The position numbers and the translations under genes are program-made. DNA of 33,968 nt from an uncultured Granulosicoccaceae bacterium. Lineage in GTDB: Bacteria > Pseudomonadota > Gammaproteobacteria > CALCKW01. This document shows positions 4,256 through 13,177 of the stretch, piece by piece. Location of the stretch: assembly GCA_937925815.1 (NCBI GenBank), contig CALAMQ010000030.1, positions 1-33,968 on the forward strand, in the 5' to 3' direction. The notes beneath the pieces were generated by a model that ran no database searches, had not been told where the DNA came from, and saw only the letters and a list, made by a program, of their open reading frames with translations. Each line of letters opens with the position of its first letter. Positions within the stretch are counted from its first letter, which is position 1.

Positions 4256-5209
4256 TTATCGCGCCTCGAGCTTGCTCTCGATCACCGCCATCAGGTCGCC
4301 GGCGATATCGAGGCCGAAAGCAGCGTCGAGCTCGCGGATGCAGGTTGGGCTTGTGACGTTGATTTCGGTCAAGCGGTCGCCGATCACATCCAGGCCAACA
4401 AAAAGCAGCCCGCGCGCGCGCAGTGGTTCGGCCACGGCCTCGGCAATAGACCGGTCGCTGTCTGACAGCGGCACCGGCACCCCGCGCCCACCTGCGGCGA
4501 GATTTCCGCGGGTCTCGCCTGCGCTTGGGATGCGCGCCAGAGCGTATGGCGCCGGTTTGCCGTCGACCAATAAGATGCGTTTGTCGCCGTCGCGAATTTC
4601 CGGCAAGAAGGCCTGGATCATGCACTGGCGCCGGCCCCGACGAGTCATATGCTCAAGAACGACATTGAGGTTGGGGTCATTCGCACTCAATCGGAATATT
4701 GACTCACCGCCCATGCCGTCCAGCGGTTTGATCACGGTGTCTTCTAATTCTTGTACGAATGATTTCAGCCTGGCCTGGGACGCGCTCACCAGCGACGCTG
4801 GGCAGAGTTCGGGAAACCAGGCAGTAAACAGTTTTTCGTTGGCATCGCGCAGCGTTTGCGGGCGGTTGACCACGAGCACGCCTTCGGCTTCCGCCAGCTC
4901 AAGCTGGTACGTCGTGTAGATGTAGTCCATGTCGAACGGTGGATCGACCCGCATCAATATCGCGTCGAGCTCGGCCAACGGACCATCGCGTACCGCGCCG
5001 AGTGCGTGCCAGTCGGTGTCACTGTCTGTGACCCTGAGCTCGCGACGCTGCGCGCAGGCTCGTCCGTTTGCGAGGTAGAGGTCGTTGGCGAGCATGTATT
5101 CGATCTGCCAGCCGCGGCGTTGCGCCGCGAGCAGCATCGCCAGCGTGCTGTCCTTTTCGGGTTTGATGGCGTCGATGGGGTCCATCACCACGCCGATTCG
5201 ATATGTCAT
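4256..5209 (-). CDS. gshB: Glutathione synthetase
   Basis: GshB ligates glycine to gamma-glutamylcysteine with ATP, the last step of glutathione synthesis in the cytoplasm. The 317 residues are typical (316 in E. coli). The N-terminus carries the family hallmark V-V-M-D-P-I with D-S-T-L-A-M-L-L-A-A-Q-R-R-G. Mid-protein there is R-x-D-P-P-F-D-M-D-Y-I, then V-I-K-P-L-D-G-M-G-G-E-S-I-F (ATP-grasp loop), and N-V-T-S-P-T near the end. The ATG at 5209 has AAGGA eight bases upstream. The gene leads the minus-strand run toward pyrC' and diverges from pilG. The gshB-pilG adjacency matches Pseudomonas. Confidence 0.97.
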   Translation of the reverse strand: MTYRIGVVMDPIDAIKPEKDSTLAMLLAAQRRGWQIEYMLANDLYLANGRACAQRRELRVTDSDTDWHALGAVRDGPLAELDAILMRVDPPFDMDYIYTTYQLELAEAEGVLVVNRPQTLRDANEKLFTAWFPELCPASLVSASQARLKSFVQELEDTVIKPLDGMGGESIFRLSANDPNLNVVLEHMTRRGRRQCMIQAFLPEIRDGDKRILLVDGKPAPYALARIPSAGETRGNLAAGGRGVPVPLSDSDRSIAEAVAEPLRARGLLFVGLDVIGDRLTEINVTSPTCIRELDAAFGLDIAGDLMAVIESKLEAR

Positions 5210-5417
5210 GACAAACGTCCTTGGGGCGTGTCGGGGCGAGTCAGTGTCGCGTCAGTAACAGGGCCTTAAAAGCGTGTTTCACGTGCCCAAACCCATTAGA
5301 CTACTGATCGGCGGTGAAACGCCATAGCGTGATCCCACATTGCACCGCGCAGTGGACTCGCACTGGCCGCACCAAGGTGCTGTCACCACCACTAAACACC
5401 CGTGAATGGAGGCCTTC
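5210..5417. promoter_or_regulatory. Divergent gshB/pilG intergenic region
   Basis: These 208 bases separate two divergent operons and must hold both promoters. I could not assign a convincing -35/-10 pair for either gene; a TAGACT at 5297-5302 is a weak -10 candidate for pilG with no good -35. A small inverted repeat (CAGTG at 5350-5354, CACTG at 5361-5365) is the only palindrome I noted. No open reading frame here resembles a known protein. Confidence 0.5.
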
Positions 5418-5831
5418 GTGTCCACTCAAGCCGTGCTGCCGCCAAACGTGAAGGTCATGGTTATCGACGACAGCAAGACGATCCGGCGCACTGCCGAGAG
5501 TTTGCTGGCCGAAGCTGGCGCACACGTGGTCACCGCGAGCGACGGCTTTGAAGCGCTTGCGCGTGTTGCCGAACACAACCCCGACATCATCTTCGTCGAC
5601 GTGATGATGCCCCGCCTCGATGGCTACCAGGTCTGCGCGCTGATAAAGCACAACGTCAACTACCGCCACATACCGGTGATCGTGCTGTCGAGCAAAGACA
5701 GCATTTTTGATAAGGCGCGTGGCAAATTGGTCGGCGCTGACAGTTACTTGACCAAGCCGTTTCAGCGCGACGATCTGCTTGGCGCTATCGCTCAGCACCT
5801 CGACAAACGCGCCGCGGCCGAGCCGGCCTGA
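5418..5831 (+). CDS. pilG: Twitching motility response regulator PilG
   Basis: PilG is a single-domain CheY-like receiver that takes phosphate from ChpA and promotes pilus extension in the Pseudomonas Chp system. All receiver residues are present: the acidic pair in V-I-D-D-S, the phospho-acceptor Asp61 in F-V-D-V-M-M-P, the Ser in V-L-S-S-K-D and the Lys in L-T-K-P-F. I start it at GTG 5418 (137 residues), because GGAGG at 5408-5412 sits five bases upstream. The ATG at 5406 shares its last base with that ribosome-binding site and so is an unlikely start. It is the first gene of the operon; pilI follows after 22 bases. The usual next gene, pilH, is absent. Confidence 0.95.
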   Translation: MSTQAVLPPNVKVMVIDDSKTIRRTAESLLAEAGAHVVTASDGFEALARVAEHNPDIIFVDVMMPRLDGYQVCALIKHNVNYRHIPVIVLSSKDSIFDKARGKLVGADSYLTKPFQRDDLLGAIAQHLDKRAAAEPA

Positions 5832-5853: not shown

Positions 5854-6381
5854 ATGCCCGGCGATGACTTTGATATCGCTCAGCCCTCGCCGCTGTCGTT
5901 ACTGAGCGATTACGCGCGCCGTGCCGATGCGCAGCCTGCGGCTGAGACCCCTGAGCCTTCGTTGGCGCAATGGTCCGGCATGCTGTGTCGACTCGGCTCG
6001 CGGCGTGGATTTGTGCCCGTGGACGCGGTGTCGGAAGTGATCGACATGCCGCGGTTAACCGCAGTGCCCGGCACGGTCAGTTGGTACCTTGGCCTGGGCA
6101 GCTTGCGAGGCCGGGTTTTGCCGGTGTGTGATCTCGGTGGTTTCCTCTTTGGGCACCGCAGCAACCAACGCGCGCTGCGCCGCGTGCTGGTGCACGGTCG
6201 CGAAACCGACGCGGTGGGCTTGGCAGTCGACGACTTGCTCGGTGTTCACACCGTGGAATGTGAGTCCGGGGAGCTCGTGTCGGACACAGTCAGCCACCAA
6301 GGTGACGCGCTCACCGTGCTCCAACTTGATGACATTGTCAGCCAATCGAGATTTCTGCATGTCAGTCTCGACTCTGTCTGA
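5854..6381 (+). CDS. pilI: CheW-like coupling protein PilI
   Basis: This 175-residue protein has one CheW domain, from about residue 35 to the end, and should couple the receptor PilJ to the kinase ChpA at the cell pole. Recognisable pieces are F-V-P-V-D-A-V-S-E-V-I-D-M-P, then W-Y-L-G-L-G-S-L-R-G-R-V-L-P-V-C-D-L, which is the conserved CheW strand (G-x-x-x-x-R-G-x-x-x-P-V-x-D-L). The ATG at 5854 has AAGGAG at 5842-5847, six bases upstream. Its last 23 bases overlap the start of pilJ in another frame, implying coupled translation. Identification as PilI rather than a general CheW rests on position between pilG and pilJ. Confidence 0.92.
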   Translation: MPGDDFDIAQPSPLSLLSDYARRADAQPAAETPEPSLAQWSGMLCRLGSRRGFVPVDAVSEVIDMPRLTAVPGTVSWYLGLGSLRGRVLPVCDLGGFLFGHRSNQRALRRVLVHGRETDAVGLAVDDLLGVHTVECESGELVSDTVSHQGDALTVLQLDDIVSQSRFLHVSLDSV

Positions 6382-8176
6382 TCGGTTTACACGGCGTGAA
6401 GCGTTGATCGCACTGTCGGTTTGCTGTGCGGTAGTCAGCCTTGTGCTGGCATTGAGCGCATTTATATTTGCGCGTCCGCTCGAGGGTGCACAGCATCAGG
6501 TGTCGGCCTTGCAGTTGCGTGTTAGGCAGGTTCGCGCCGACAGCCTAGCTCTACGCGAAGCGCTCATGTCAATTGAGTTGATTCAGCGACTTGGGAACCA
6601 GCAAGACCTTGCCAATGCGGCGTTTGCGTCGTTGCGCGAGTCGGTGAATACCGATTCAGGTCCGCTCGACATGACCGTGGTGGCACCGGCTTGGGACGCG
6701 GCAATGTCGGCCTGGCAAAACCAACTGACAGGCGCTCGGTCTGCGGTCGATGACGCCAACCAACGAGCCGCGCTCGCGGACCAGCTCGATGAAGCGCATG
6801 CTATCGGTCTGAGTCTCGCGCGCACAGTTTTCGGTGGCACAACACTCGGTCCGGCCCAGCGGGTTGCATGGCTACAATGGCCGCTGACACTCGCAGAGCT
6901 GCGCGTTCGCGTGGCCGCCGCAGGGGGCTATCTTGCGTCTGAAATGGCGGCACCAATCTCGGCGGCGCATGACGACACACGCGCACTGATTGACAGTTCT
7001 GCAAGTGATATCAGCGACCGTGCCAGAGAGGGGCTCGAAGTTGTGCAAGCGCTGCTTGCAAACGCGGAGTCCCAATTTGCAAGCCCAAGTGCCGCGCCGC
7101 CCGCAGTCGCCACGGCCGACAGCGCGGCGCGTGAACTTGAAGCCGCGCTCATGGGGGCTGGCGATGCACTTGCGGTTGCCTTATCGCGTTGGAGCACCGC
7201 CAAGTGGGTCGCTGTCATCGCTGGCGTGTTCAGCATGCTCGGTTTCTCGCTGGCGCACGCGATGAGCGTGTCCGGCACCTCAGTCCTCAATGCCCGACGC
7301 AGTGGCCGCCAGCAAGCGTTGCTAACCGCCGCGCGACGGCTGGTATCAGACAGCAAGCGTGACTACCAATTCGCGCGCGCCTTAAACGGGGCGAGCGCTA
7401 AACGCCATGATCGCCTTGAGCAACTGTCGTCTGACGCGCATGCCTTGGCCGCGAGCGCCTCGCGGCTAAGCAAGCCACGCGAGCTGGTGTTGAATCTCGG
7501 ACGTCAGCATGCAAATTCACAGCGGACGCTTGGAAAACAGATGGCCAGCACCGGCCTTGCATTGCAAGAGACCAAGCAGCATGCGCAAAGATGGGCGCAA
7601 CGTTGCGAGGCGTCCAAAGACCTGCACCGCAGCACGCGAGAGCTCGGCGAGCGCGCGGCATTGCTGCAAGTCAATGCACGCATTCGCATGGGTTGGTCAG
7701 AGACAGAGCTCTCAGAGGATTTTCAACGGCTCAATGACAGTATGAGACGCGTGATGACGCAGACCGAATCCCTCGTGCGGCATCAAGGAGACGCGGCGCA
7801 GCGCACGCTCGCCAGCTTGGTGAAGAGCATCGACTTGCACGCGGACTCTGATTCAACGGTTGCACACGCAGCCCGGCAACTGCAGGCTTACGTGAACGGA
7901 CAGAGTGACCTCAGTGGGCGTTATGACAAGCTCGACACAGAGCTCAGTTCTTATGAAGTCAAACTGCAGGAATTGCAAGAGCAAGCGGCGAGTGACCAAG
8001 AGCTCGAAGCCCGCGCTCTCAAGGCGCGCCGTGCCACGGCGAAGTTTGCCGAGCAGGTCAACCGCCTGATTTTGTTCGAGCCAGCTGATGAAGCCAAAGC
8101 GCCACCGCCAGCGCGTTCGGCGCCGCAGCGCGCGCGTGCAACCAGGGCGGTTGACAGTGCGGAGGTAGAAGTCTGA
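6359..8176 (+). CDS. pilJ: PilJ-like chemoreceptor with a degenerate signalling tip
   Basis: By position, topology and coiled-coil composition this is the PilJ receptor of the twitching chemosensory pathway. The 605 residues hold a first membrane helix at about 15-38, a periplasmic region of about 240 residues, a second membrane helix at about 283-302 and a long cytoplasmic helical region. I cannot recognise a HAMP domain after the second helix. The most conserved part of chemoreceptors, the hairpin tip with N-A-A-I-E-A-A-R-A-G-E-x-G-x-G-F, is replaced around residues 435-457 by L-L-Q-V-N-A-R-I-R-M-G-W-S-E-T-E-L-S-E-D-F. Only the L-x-x-N-A part remains. The start ATG at 6359 lies 23 bases inside pilI. 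The stop shares one base with the chpA start (TGATG). No frameshift is needed to read it, so it looks like an intact but diverged gene. Confidence 0.82.
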   Translation: MSVSTLSDRFTRREALIALSVCCAVVSLVLALSAFIFARPLEGAQHQVSALQLRVRQVRADSLALREALMSIELIQRLGNQQDLANAAFASLRESVNTDSGPLDMTVVAPAWDAAMSAWQNQLTGARSAVDDANQRAALADQLDEAHAIGLSLARTVFGGTTLGPAQRVAWLQWPLTLAELRVRVAAAGGYLASEMAAPISAAHDDTRALIDSSASDISDRAREGLEVVQALLANAESQFASPSAAPPAVATADSAARELEAALMGAGDALAVALSRWSTAKWVAVIAGVFSMLGFSLAHAMSVSGTSVLNARRSGRQQALLTAARRLVSDSKRDYQFARALNGASAKRHDRLEQLSSDAHALAASASRLSKPRELVLNLGRQHANSQRTLGKQMASTGLALQETKQHAQRWAQRCEASKDLHRSTRELGERAALLQVNARIRMGWSETELSEDFQRLNDSMRRVMTQTESLVRHQGDAAQRTLASLVKSIDLHADSDSTVAHAARQLQAYVNGQSDLSGRYDKLDTELSSYEVKLQELQEQAASDQELEARALKARRATAKFAEQVNRLILFEPADEAKAPPPARSAPQRARATRAVDSAEVEV

Positions 8177-11100
8177 TGTCGCTGCCCGCCGCGCCTGCCC
8201 GCTACTTTCCAAAGCCCATGCACAGTTTGCTCGGTGAGCTTGCCAGCACGCTCGACACGCTTGAAACACGCATGGCAGCGGTGGCTGACAACGGCACCAA
8301 CGCGCACGAGTTGGCAGTGGTGTTGCCGGTGTTGATTCAAGCACGTGACGTCTGCGCGCTCACCGGTCTCAACGGACCGCATTTGTTGCTCGTTGAGATG
8401 GTGCGCGTCGTCGAAGCGGTGATTGAAGGTGAATTTGAGCAGCCGCTGGAGGCCAATACCGCACTGATGTTTGCCGCGGCGCGCTTGCCTGGCTACATCC
8501 ACAGACTGGCGATTGGTGGTCGAGATATTCCGCTGGCGCTGTTGCCGGCATTGAATGACCTGCGCGCGGTGCGCGGCGCGCCCTTGTTGTCGGATGCGGT
8601 CATGCGGCTGCCTCTGTTTCGTCTGCCACCCGATGACCTCGGCGTGTCTCACTCCGATGACACGCTCGCTGCGGCTGCGCGCCAAGTGCGCCCTCACTAC
8701 ATGCGTGCGTTGTTGAGCTTGATCCGTGGCGAAGGTGTCGATGACGCGCTCGGTCAGATTGCCGGGTGTCTCAAGACGCTGCGCGAGCATTCTCACCGGC
8801 GCTCTGTGCGCATGCTCTGGCTGATTGCGCGCGGTGTTGTCGACGGCCTCAGAGGGGGCGCACTCGAACTCAAGCCGGCGGTCAAAACCCTGCTTGGCCA
8901 AATGGATCAATGCATCAAGCTCGCGGTTGAGCACGGTGAGCGCGATTTGGTTGTATCGCTGCCACCGGAGCTGCTGCGCAGTTTGTTGTTCTACTGCGCG
9001 CACGCGGGTGACACCAGTGATGTGTTGACAGTGGTGCGCCAGCGCTACCAGCTCGATGACCTCGGGCGACTGGCAACCGCTGACGACACCGTTGCCACGC
9101 AAGTCAATACAGCCCCTGCACCGGGCTTGCTGTTCGCCGCACGCGATCAAGTCCAAGACGAATTGGACCGGGTGCGCGATGCAGTGTTGGCCTTTGCCCA
9201 CAGCGACGTGGATCCCGCTGAGACCCTGCAACCAGCTGGGCTGTTGCTTGAGCGCGTATGTGAAACGCTCGGGGTGCTCGGCCTGAACAGCGCGCGCACC
9301 ACCTTGCACACATCGATTCCGATGTTCCACGGCATCCGCAACCGCCACACCAGCGCGCGCGCACTCGGCACGCTCGCCGAAGTACTGTTGCAGGGCAGTC
9401 GATTGCTTGACGCAGAGTTGGATCGCCAGAGTGGCGCCGACGATGACCTCGACTGCAGTCAGGAACTCGACATCGAGCAATCGGCACTCACGCGCATGCC
9501 GCGCGAAGAGCGCCGCCGCCTGTTGAGCGCGGTGCTCGAGCAGCTGCGCGCTGCGCTCGAGGCATTTGAATCGGCGGTGGTCGCGTTGCGCGCCGGTGGC
9601 GATGTGTCCTCTGGCATCGACAGCGCGGCAGAAGTGCTGCGCGACGCGAGCCGCGCGTTGGATGTTGTGCCACTGCGCGCCGCGCATGACGCCTTTCAGC
9701 GGCTTGTTGACCTCGTCGACAGACTGCGAACATCAGACTTTGACTTTGCGGGTCTAGACCACAGCTCAGCACTGGTCGAAGCGGTGGCCGCACTTGATCT
9801 GTACCTTCGCGCGATGGCCGAGAACGACCTCAATGGCCGCGGCTACTTGCGGGCGTGCTTCACCGGTCTGACGTCGCTCGAACAGGAGCTTGCCGCACGG
9901 CAGGTTGTCGAGGCCGTGCCGGCTGCCAGCGCGCCGCCCGCTGCAAGTTTGGCGCAGCCCGACGTGCCACCTGATCCACCTGAGTTACCGCAGCCAACTG
10001 AAGACGCTGCGCCTGCGGTTGCAGCGCACGCGCTGGATCGCACTGATGATACGCCACGGTACTGCAACGACCCTGCGTTGCGCGCGCTGTTCGTCGCCGA
10101 GGCGCACGAGCGCATGGAGTTGCTTCGGCAACATTTGGAGACCCGCACTGACGCCAGTGGCGGTGTGTCGGTTGATGACCGTGCGCGTCACTTGGTCTCG
10201 GCAGCTGCGCAACAGGCCCGGCCCGCTGAAGTCAACGCGGTCGCCTGCTTACTAGAACAGATTGGGCGCCTCTTTGCGCACTACCAGCGCAGCAGCGCAA
10301 GTGCGTCGCGCATGGAAATGGACTTGGTGACGCGCGCATTTGCAAGCGTGGACCTGAGTTTGGATAACCTCAGTATTCACGAACCTTGCGATCCAGATGC
10401 GCTGGGGTTGTTTGAAGAGTTGAGTAGCCTCGCATCAGTGCTCGGTGTGGCGGACGATGCCGAGGACCAGGACGCCGCTGACGAATTGCGCGCCGTGTTT
10501 CTGGAAGAGGCAGATGAGCTGTTGGCGGTTGCAGGTGTGGCACTTGCGGACTGGCAGGAGCAACCGGCAGATCACACCAGTGCGCAACGCCTTATGCGCA
10601 GCCTTCACACCCTAAAAGGCAGTGCGCGCGTTGCCGGGTGCGTTGATATCGCCGATATCGCGCACGTGATTGAGAGTGATGTCACCCGACTCGCTGTCGA
10701 GCCCAAGGCTTTTCGATCAGAACATGCGATGCAGTTGCAACAAGGACTCGATCGTATCGCCGAGGTGGTGTGCAACGGCGCAGCGACCTCGGCCGACAGC
10801 AGCCTGGTCGCGCCTGCCGCATCCGATCTCGACGATGCCAAAGACGATCTGCAAACGAGTGTTGTCAGTGCGGGCCAGAGCGTTGAGAACGTTGAGAGCG
10901 TCAATGAAAGCGTGCCTTCGGTGCAACCCGACGCGGTCACGGACAACGCCGATGACATGTTGCGCGTGAGCAGTCAGGAGGTCGGCGATCTCGCAGCCCT
11001 CGCCAATGATGTAACGCTTCACCGGTTGGCTCTGCACGACAGTATGTTCGAGGCGCAATCGCAGATTGATGACATGACGCGTACCGTGCGGCGACTCGAG

Positions 11101-12678
11101 GAACTCTACCGCGGCACTGCCGACGGCGACGACGGTGTTTTGCCGCCCGCTGTTCAGGAAACATTGCGTGACTTTGACACCATTTCGCAAGGCGTGCGGG
11201 ATCACATGCGCATGTCGCGCGCGGCGCTCGATGCCCAACGGCAATCTGGTGCCTCGTTGCAAGACGGCTTGCTGAAACTGCGGCTGCTGAGCTTTGAGTC
11301 ACTGGTGCCGCGCTTGCAACGTGTGGTTCGCCAGACCGCGCAGGCATTTTCAAAGCAAGTAACGCTCAGCGTCGTCGGCGGCGACCTCTCGCTTGACCGG
11401 GGCTTGTTGGCACGCCTCGCGGGCCCACTCGAACACGTGGTTCGAAACGCTGTGGTGCACGGCATTGAGTCCCAGGCTGATCGGGTGACTGCTGGCAAGG
11501 ACCCGTGTGGCCGCATAGTGATGCACGCCTATCAACAACAGGGCAGTCTGCATGTTCGCGTGGCGGACGACGGCCGTGGAATCGATTTGGCCGGTGTGCG
11601 CTCGGCGGCGCAGGCGCGTGGCGTGGCGCTCGACGCCAGTGATGACGCGTTGATCAACCTGATTCTGACGCCGGGCTTTAGCACGGTTGAAGCGGTTGGT
11701 GACCACGCTGGTCGAGGCGTCGGCCTGGACGTTGTCAACCGCGAGGTGCGAGCAGCGGGGGGCAATCTCAGCATTCAGACTCAGCCCGGTGCTGGCGCCG
11801 TGTTTGGGCTGCGTCTGCCGCAGGCTTTGACCATTGAGAAGGCTGTGCTGTTGCGCGCCGGTGACAGCCGGTTTGCCGTGCCGCTGAATCAAGTGGTGAG
11901 CATCGAGCACGTGCCCGCAGCGGTGGTGCGCGACATCTACCTCAAAGAATCGGGGACTTTCGGTTACGACGGCGACAGCTTTCCAGTACACCACCTCGGT
12001 GAATTAATTGGTGTGTCTGCTTGGCAGCCGGAGGCAGCCAGTGAGCGTGAGGCCTTGGTGTTGCTCGATCTCGGCGAACGCCGCATGGCATTACATGTGG
12101 ACAGCGTTGTCGGGCAACGGGAGTTACCGGTGCGAAACGGTGGCAAGCAACTGCAACAGCTTCGTGGCTTCAGCGGTGCAAGCGTGATGGCCGATGGCGA
12201 AGTGGTGTTGGTGCTCGATGTCGCGGGTTTGTTGTTGGAGCGCGCCGGGCACGAGGCCTTGGTGGACGTCGGCGACGAGACCCGGGTTTTGGCAACGGCG
12301 GTGGCGAGCACGGTCATGGTGGTCGACGACTCGGTCACCATGCGACGCGCCAACAGCCAGGCCCTGAGCAAAGGCGGTTACCGCGTTTTACAAGCCCGCA
12401 ATGGCCTCGATGCGCTGCAACAGATGCAAGACGAGTGGGTGGACGCGCTGGTGCTCGATCTCGACATGCCCGGCATGGATGGCTACCAACTGCTAGAGCG
12501 CCTGCGGGCGGATGAAAACACGCAAAAATTGCCTGTTGTCGTGGTGTCTTCGCGCTCGGAAGAGGAGAGCCGTGCGCGGGTGAAATCGCTCGGTGTTGCC
12601 CACTTTCTTGAAAAGCCCTGCCGGGGGCGATGGCTGTTGGACACCGTTGACCAACTGCTCGGCGCGACGGTCAGCTGA
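8176..12678 (+). CDS. chpA: ChpA-type hybrid chemotaxis histidine kinase (short form)
   Basis: This is the central CheA-like kinase of the Chp system. The N-terminal ~600 residues are a helical, Hpt-like region without phosphotransfer motifs. A degenerate Hpt surrounds His672 (R-H-L-V-S-A-A, missing the K-G). One canonical Hpt follows, with His811 in L-H-T-L-K-G-S-A-R-V-A-G. A P3-like dimerisation part (about 960-1070) leads to the HATPase domain (about 1075-1215). Its N box is E-H-V-V-R-N-A-V-V-H-G at 1086-1096, with Val where CheA has Asp; D-D-G-R-G-I-D and G-R-G-V-G-L-D-V-V are intact. A CheW domain (about 1218-1355) and a C-terminal receiver (1379-1497, phospho-acceptor Asp1428) complete it. 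The 1500 residues are far shorter than Pseudomonas ChpA (about 2470, with eight phosphotransfer-like domains). The start overlaps the pilJ stop by one base, with GGAGG ten bases upstream. Confidence 0.93.
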   Translation: MSLPAAPARYFPKPMHSLLGELASTLDTLETRMAAVADNGTNAHELAVVLPVLIQARDVCALTGLNGPHLLLVEMVRVVEAVIEGEFEQPLEANTALMFAAARLPGYIHRLAIGGRDIPLALLPALNDLRAVRGAPLLSDAVMRLPLFRLPPDDLGVSHSDDTLAAAARQVRPHYMRALLSLIRGEGVDDALGQIAGCLKTLREHSHRRSVRMLWLIARGVVDGLRGGALELKPAVKTLLGQMDQCIKLAVEHGERDLVVSLPPELLRSLLFYCAHAGDTSDVLTVVRQRYQLDDLGRLATADDTVATQVNTAPAPGLLFAARDQVQDELDRVRDAVLAFAHSDVDPAETLQPAGLLLERVCETLGVLGLNSARTTLHTSIPMFHGIRNRHTSARALGTLAEVLLQGSRLLDAELDRQSGADDDLDCSQELDIEQSALTRMPREERRRLLSAVLEQLRAALEAFESAVVALRAGGDVSSGIDSAAEVLRDASRALDVVPLRAAHDAFQRLVDLVDRLRTSDFDFAGLDHSSALVEAVAALDLYLRAMAENDLNGRGYLRACFTGLTSLEQELAARQVVEAVPAASAPPAASLAQPDVPPDPPELPQPTEDAAPAVAAHALDRTDDTPRYCNDPALRALFVAEAHERMELLRQHLETRTDASGGVSVDDRARHLVSAAAQQARPAEVNAVACLLEQIGRLFAHYQRSSASASRMEMDLVTRAFASVDLSLDNLSIHEPCDPDALGLFEELSSLASVLGVADDAEDQDAADELRAVFLEEADELLAVAGVALADWQEQPADHTSAQRLMRSLHTLKGSARVAGCVDIADIAHVIESDVTRLAVEPKAFRSEHAMQLQQGLDRIAEVVCNGAATSADSSLVAPAASDLDDAKDDLQTSVVSAGQSVENVESVNESVPSVQPDAVTDNADDMLRVSSQEVGDLAALANDVTLHRLALHDSMFEAQSQIDDMTRTVRRLEELYRGTADGDDGVLPPAVQETLRDFDTISQGVRDHMRMSRAALDAQRQSGASLQDGLLKLRLLSFESLVPRLQRVVRQTAQAFSKQVTLSVVGGDLSLDRGLLARLAGPLEHVVRNAVVHGIESQADRVTAGKDPCGRIVMHAYQQQGSLHVRVADDGRGIDLAGVRSAAQARGVALDASDDALINLILTPGFSTVEAVGDHAGRGVGLDVVNREVRAAGGNLSIQTQPGAGAVFGLRLPQALTIEKAVLLRAGDSRFAVPLNQVVSIEHVPAAVVRDIYLKESGTFGYDGDSFPVHHLGELIGVSAWQPEAASEREALVLLDLGERRMALHVDSVVGQRELPVRNGGKQLQQLRGFSGASVMADGEVVLVLDVAGLLLERAGHEALVDVGDETRVLATAVASTVMVVDDSVTMRRANSQALSKGGYRVLQARNGLDALQQMQDEWVDALVLDLDMPGMDGYQLLERLRADENTQKLPVVVVSSRSEEESRARVKSLGVAHFLEKPCRGRWLLDTVDQLLGATVS

Positions 12679-12679
12679 C

Positions 12680-13177
12680 ATGAAGGCGTCCACGCGTGGC
12701 TCAGTTGACCAAGTAGCTGGACTGCGCTGCCTCGTGATGCCGCTTACCAAAGGCTTTGCGCTCTTGCCAAATGACGTTGTGCAGGCGCTTATTTACAACG
12801 AACAATTAGACCCGCCGGACTTCGATGCGCCAGGTTGGTTGCTGGGCTCAGTGCACCGTGAAGCGCTTGGTCGAGTGCCCTTGATTTCGTTAGAGGCGCT
12901 GTGTGGCTGGACAACGCCGCCTGCAGGCGGCGGCCATATTGCCTTACTGAGGCATCTGGGGCACAGCGATCTGCCGCCCTATTTTGCTATGAGGCTGGCA
13001 GGTGCACCGTGGGTGGTGGAGCTGAACGCGACCAGCCGCTTGCACGCCATACAACCCGACTCCAAGCTGTTTTGTGTTGTCAGTGAAATCAGTTTGGATG
13101 GCCAGTTGGGTGTCATACCGGACCTCGATGCGCTCGGTGAGGTGCTGAGCACGGTGGAACAGCCCCACACGCGCTGA
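12680..13177 (+). CDS. chpC: CheW-like protein ChpC
   Basis: The 165 residues resemble a divergent CheW domain: an N-terminal strand with L-R-C-L-V-M-P-L and F-A-L-L-P-N-D-V-V, then W-L-L-G-S-V with the ensuing R-V-P-L-I-S-L-E in place of the usual R-G-x-x-x-P-V-x-D-L. It follows chpA after one base and is the last gene of the operon, so by position it is ChpC, an accessory coupler that may link other receptors to ChpA. No Shine-Dalgarno sequence is clear, so it may rely on coupling to chpA translation. The gene expected between chpA and chpC, the methylesterase chpB, is absent. A hairpin overlaps its stop codon. Confidence 0.8.
   Translation: MKASTRGSVDQVAGLRCLVMPLTKGFALLPNDVVQALIYNEQLDPPDFDAPGWLLGSVHREALGRVPLISLEALCGWTTPPAGGGHIALLRHLGHSDLPPYFAMRLAGAPWVVELNATSRLHAIQPDSKLFCVVSEISLDGQLGVIPDLDALGEVLSTVEQPHTR

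Follow-up and report, generated by a model that had tools for sequence, protein, structure and literature searches.

The PilJ receptor encoded in the window, by which we mean the whole 33,968-nucleotide stretch of DNA analysed here (from an uncultured Granulosicoccaceae bacterium), descends, as judged from its sequence relationships, from normal PilJs and is their orthologue, yet it does not pass the sequence tests by which a canonical chemoreceptor is defined. The tip of a chemoreceptor contacts CheA and CheW and forms receptor trimers; it is among the most conserved stretches in bacterial signalling, and chemosensory arrays of every kind are regarded as sharing it as an unchanging core. In the PilJ of the window this tip has been remade, and the protein probably serves as a membrane hairpin that docks PilI and ChpA through an altered interface, with a basal flow from ChpA to PilG and without standard arrays.

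The pilJ gene, its tip and its operon

The features of the operon are as follows.

4256..5209, - strand: gshB, a conserved flanking gene on which the synteny comparison and the tree draw (Pfam)
5406..5831, + strand: pilG, a single response regulator, with no pilH between pilG and pilI (Pfam, operon survey)
5854..6381, + strand: pilI, a CheW-like coupling protein with a shortened segment before its last strands (Pfam, alignment)
6359..8176, + strand: pilJ-like receptor gene, 605 aa (ORF, Pfam, synteny)
7643..7741, + strand: remade hairpin tip, residues 429-461, LGERAALLQVNARIRMGWSETELSEDFQRLNDS (trio alignment)
8176..12678, + strand: chpA, a CheA-type kinase with Hpt, HATPase, CheW-like and receiver domains (Pfam)
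12680..13177, + strand: chpC-like gene for a second coupling protein, which diverges too far to pass the Pfam CheW cut-off (comparison)

The pilJ reading frame is open across all 605 codons, which agrees with an earlier sequence-only reading that had claimed the absence of any stop or frameshift. The same reading had described pilJ as coupled to pilI and chpA, and indeed 23 nt are shared by pilI and pilJ, and the final base of the pilJ stop codon is the first base of chpA. The unusual tip letters that it had reported were also recovered: at the place of the canonical chemoreceptor tip, residues 435-455 read LLQVNARIRMGWSETELSEDF. The canonical LxLNAxxxAxxAGExGRGFxVVA tip is missing from the protein, and the AxxAGExGRGFAVVA turn within it is replaced by a hairpin that is six residues shorter. 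A Pfam search of the whole protein at E<=10 matched neither MCPsignal (PF00015), at any position, nor HAMP, nor the PilJ domain, and a search of NCBIfam gave nothing significant; for comparison, PilJs from other families score 140-151 bits against PF00015. The PilJ-type periplasmic domain PF13675 had no match in the window PilJ and none in that of G003, the fourth of the genomes analysed from the window's order.

The sequence-only reading had proposed checking whether sister species conserve the altered tip, and two of these (G001 and G002, which together with the window's own genome, G000, we call the trio) were found to carry the same altered tip, in PilJs that are respectively 34% and 46% identical to that of the window. 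PF00015 was not matched in these two proteins either (Pfam, E<=1). The pattern LGE[RH]AALLQVNARIR[MV]...L..DFQRLNDS is common to the trio, and the HAMP segment that follows the second membrane helix in all other aligned PilJs is missing from all three.

The operon itself is reduced. The adaptation genes pilK and chpB are missing from it, pilJ abuts chpA, and pilK is absent from all sampled Chp operons of the clade formed by the window's order and its sister order (the order of G147). The window also encodes pilM and a secretin with AMIN domains, and PilT and PilU are present in all four genomes of the order; the occurrence of these genes alongside the chp genes identifies the system as the Pil-Chp system of a type IV pilus.

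Descent and predicted structure of the receptor

The gene order gshB/pilG/(pilH)/pilI/pilJ/chpA is common to the four analysed genomes of the order (G000-G003) and to most of the sampled Chp operons. Profile-profile comparison (hhalign) of the trio PilJs with six normal PilJs gave a match at 95.9% probability (E 5e-9, 429 columns), in which the two profiles remain in register through the tip and are separated there by a gap of about six residues. This indicates that the canonical tip gave rise to that of the trio by shortening and alteration, and that neither an insertion nor an unrelated protein is involved. We also asked whether the genome encodes a further PilJ with a normal tip outside this operon; this was rejected, as the top-scoring proteins of G000, G001 and G002 are other MCPs, which align through the signalling domain only. 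Recent transfer of the trio PilJ was likewise rejected, since a search of 369 genomes of the class with the trio profile matched no relative from beyond the order, and it is further disfavoured by the finding that gshB, pilG, pilI, pilJ and chpA all place G002 nearest.

An AlphaFold2 model of the window PilJ was built from an alignment of four rows and has a mean pLDDT of 71.8, which falls to about 59 at the turn (block 441-450). The predicted features are as follows.

6398..6466, + strand: predicted first transmembrane segment, about residues 14-36 (sequence and model helix 7-66)
7199..7267, + strand: predicted second transmembrane segment, about residues 281-303 (sequence, alignment, model)
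7691..7699, + strand: predicted hairpin turn, residues 445-447 (AlphaFold2, between helices 317-444 and 448-571)

The two predicted transmembrane segments agree with the two membrane helices that had been read from the sequence, and in the model they flank a helical periplasmic part. Helices 317-444 and 448-571 are predicted to form an antiparallel cytoplasmic hairpin, and a low-confidence linker (residues 305-320) stands where other PilJs have HAMP. In a normal PilJ modelled identically as a control, the turn falls at the homologous position and has a similar confidence. According to the model, the window PilJ retains the helical hairpin and it is the tip of this hairpin that is altered; the original description of a lost hairpin tip is thus apt for the tip signature and for the six missing residues, but not for the hairpin itself, which is predicted to be kept, and it had overlooked that HAMP is gone as well. 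When the model was searched with Foldseek, the chemoreceptors 8c5v and 2ch7 and the PilJ periplasmic domains 8wdf and 7zjr ranked high, at E>0.02 and hence as supportive matches only; a sequence search of the PDB with the trio PilJs returned nothing significant.

Stepwise erosion of the tip across the clade

We sampled 55 Chp operons across the class, one per genome, which were fetched by ChpA similarity and thus independently of PilJ. PilJ adjoins PilI in 54 of these, and its tip is canonical in 53; the sole non-canonical tip among the 54 is that of G147 (L133), which reads NAAIQAGGGGGQNRYSAVADEVQRLAE. The genome G028 was considered as a case of a Chp operon without PilJ and was rejected because its canonical PilJ is encoded about 11 kb from the operon; at C2:352304-368608 (L144, L150) it has pilG-pilI-chpA with neither pilH nor pilJ between them.

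Outside the clade, the canonical tip was present in 59/59 PilJs (those of the 53 operons, that of G028 and five further normal PilJs), compared to 0/27 within it (23 from the sister order, including G147, and those of the window's four genomes), a contrast well beyond what chance would give. The search of the sister order left 25 genomes without a match at E 1e-50. All 20 sister-order loci that were re-fetched with their flanks have gshB/pilG/pilI/pilJ in this order, followed by chpA wherever the contig extends that far. In a gshB tree with a canonical outgroup, G147 is sister to the window's four genomes (support 95/85).

Compared to the canonical length, the tip is one residue shorter in G147, two residues shorter in G003 and six residues shorter in the trio, while most of the sister-order tips are lengthened by insertions rather than shortened. 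PF00015 scores in the sister order are down to 44-112 bits (nine tested), and HAMP has been lost in the clade only in the trio. On these comparisons, the PilJ tip is one that has eroded stepwise, and the window PilJ represents the extreme of a clade-wide trend, which could not be seen from the sequence alone.

The coupling protein was analyzed at the positions equivalent to E38 and R62 of E. coli CheW, which were mapped onto PilI through the equal-length range of 2ho9; the salt bridge between these residues is said to align the receptor and kinase sites (PMC3828127). Both equivalents are present in 55/58 normal PilIs and in 10/25 clade PilIs, and the window's genus keeps both whereas the sister order often loses the pair. 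The trio lacks pilH, as do six of the sampled sister-order operons. In several sister-order operons (L186, L188, L190, L191, L193 and L194), pilH is gone from between pilG and pilI and the PilI also lacks E38/R62. Together, the sequences suggest a repeated simplification of the Chp pathway in the sister order. We also observed that the pilH of G048 (L102:3380-3840) appears frameshifted, reflecting either a pseudogene or a sequencing error.

Constraint on the remade tip and its possible role

No stretch of PilJ is better conserved across the three species of the trio than residues 429-461. The arms of the tip (429-443 and 454-461) are nearly invariant and the turn (444-450) varies; in normal chemoreceptors it is the turn that is the conserved part. 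The best 30-residue segment of PilJ is 67% invariant, compared to a mean of 24%, and 3/20,000 permutations of the columns of the entire protein reached this level. With permutation confined to the cytoplasmic part, the conservation of the tip was reached in 92/20,000 cases, which makes the tip less exceptional against that background. Codon differences at invariant residues were synonymous in 122/144 cases (whole PilJ). The conserved arms, the synonymous codons and the variable turn together argue that the remade tip is under a constraint of its own, and from these alignments we conclude that the new tip is neither an error nor simple decay.

The rate at which PilJ evolves in this genus nevertheless requires that passive decay be weighed, in which PilJ is dispensable and its tip drifts toward loss under relaxed selection. 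Between the window and G002, identity is 46% for PilJ, 63% for PilI, 85% for gshB and 88% for PilG (across the sisters, 63-71% for ChpA and 87-88% for PilG), whereas normal same-genus pairs with gshB at 83-87% have PilJs that are 92-93% identical and PilIs that are 88-90% identical. Divergence so far beyond that of normal PilJ pairs at equal gshB distance also fits relaxed constraint, as do the wide scatter of turn lengths in the sister order and the frequent loss of E38/R62 from PilI there. Against decay, no other part of PilJ in the window's genus is conserved as well as the tip arms, where most codon changes are synonymous, and the pilJ frames are open in all three species with gene order and overlaps kept, while the PilI of the window's genus retains E38/R62. 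We consider decay unlikely.

We give a similarly low weight to the possibility that ChpA receives its input from MCPs with normal tips, via the triple-CheW protein, CheV or PilI, with PilJ acting as an anchor or binding another partner. The three other full-length MCPs of the window's genome have ordinary tips, indicating that the loss of the tip is specific to PilJ. In a census of CheW domains in these draft assemblies, ChpA was the only CheA in G000 and G002; no further kinase accompanies their canonical MCPs, CheR, CheV or CheV-like protein and triple-CheW protein. Such a gene complement would favour input from elsewhere. On the other hand, both G001 and G003 have a separate CheA/CheW besides ChpA, and G001 combines these with the altered tip, so that the changes are not tied to the sharing of ChpA. 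The draft state of the G000 and G002 assemblies also weighs against this possibility, and the conservation of the PilJ tip suggests a specific contact at the tip itself.

Contigs C57 (L090) and C120 (L093) of G000 carry chemotaxis genes outside the window. At L090:3181-9152, a four-PAS MCP, CheR and the triple-CheW protein occur together without a kinase, and the copy of this cluster in G002 (L094) additionally has a CheD-like gene. The window's genome has one CheR, which adjoins another MCP and is not in the pilJ operon.

It is very improbable that an unrelated coiled-coil membrane protein has taken the place of pilJ in the operon. The absence of any Pfam or PDB family match and the identity of only 22-24% to the G003 PilJ might be read in this way, but the profile match is in register, a profile made from the trio alone recovers the N-terminal half of the G003 PilJ at E 8.9e-16, and G147 and G003 provide stepwise intermediates in tree order. 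An artefact of sequencing, assembly or binning is hardly credible, draft assemblies notwithstanding, since the same tip occurs in three independent genomes at 34-46% PilJ identity, with open frames and conserved neighbours, and a one-contig genome of 7.78 Mb in the sister order also has a non-canonical PilJ tip.

We therefore return to the reading that we favour, in which PilJ is an orthologue with a remade tip. Since its partners are intact and the arms of its tip are constrained, the hairpin probably still docks the PilI and ChpA of its own system, and perhaps also ChpC, by means of the altered tip, which would hold the kinase at the pilus-bearing membrane. As a membrane scaffold, PilJ could then set the basal phosphoflow from ChpA to PilG. 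It would build none of the standard hexagonal arrays of trimers of dimers, in which ligand binding is relayed and methylation provides adaptation; the lack of HAMP, of pilK, chpB and pilH in the operon and of a canonical tip makes ordinary adapting array signalling unlikely. A scaffold that sets basal flow is thus more likely than a relay with adaptation in a standard hexagonal array, and the classic chemoreceptor contact appears to be rewired rather than broken. The sequence-only reading had offered either a changed interface or a scaffold or constitutive input. The conservation of the tip and the retention of E38/R62 in PilI favour the former, as an interface that is changed and selected; with HAMP, pilK, chpB, pilH and the canonical tip missing, the latter is plausible too, and the reading is partly supported. 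More tentatively, and with somewhat less than even confidence, we propose that the near-universal contact of the receptor tip with CheA and CheW has been replaced in small steps together with the coupling protein, giving a receptor-kinase complex other than the standard hexagonal array.

Compared to the PilJ of the P. aeruginosa-type Pil-Chp system (PMC12632253), the window PilJ has the same place between pilI and chpA, near gshB and pilG, and is predicted to share its two membrane segments, helical periplasmic part and long cytoplasmic hairpin. It differs in having no PF00015, HAMP or PilJ-domain match and a tip that is six residues shorter and without AGExGRGF, in an operon that lacks pilK and pilH. 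The sister-order PilJs (G147, G388 and others; L152-L174) resemble it in the loss of the canonical turn, the absence of pilK and the operon itself, but they keep HAMP and a weakened PF00015 match, of which the window PilJ has neither; their turns are mostly lengthened and their PilIs often without E38/R62, whereas the turn of the window PilJ is shortened. With MCPs such as E. coli Tsr (PF00015) the window PilJ shares the predicted antiparallel helical hairpin and an N-x-x-I remnant at the tip, but the part of the tip that binds CheA and CheW and makes trimers is replaced, and HAMP is absent. The F2 arrays of Treponema denticola are likewise a natural departure from the standard array; there, the kinase and the coupling proteins diverge and receptor trimers of dimers are kept (PMC7666581), whereas in the window it is the receptor tip itself that is replaced. 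We found no report of tip-altered PilJs in the literature searched, the coverage of which was limited.

The role of the receptor in the surface-sensing pilus system is still debated. With its ordered tip intermediates (canonical and one, two and six residues shorter), a coupling protein that often degenerates in parallel and the loss of PilK and PilH, the clade offers a comparison set up by nature that could show which functions depend on the tip, on HAMP, on adaptation and on array geometry. It could also be used to ask whether the retention and regulation of a CheA-type kinase are possible in the absence of standard arrays.

We also noted a 232-aa protein encoded on contig C4 of G000 (L004:1513-2208, - strand), which combines a weak match to a PilJ-type sensor with half of an MCP signalling domain, and whose tip reads LNAAVEAARLGQNGAAFAV. 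The other three genomes of the genus likewise have short MCP-domain matches of about this size.
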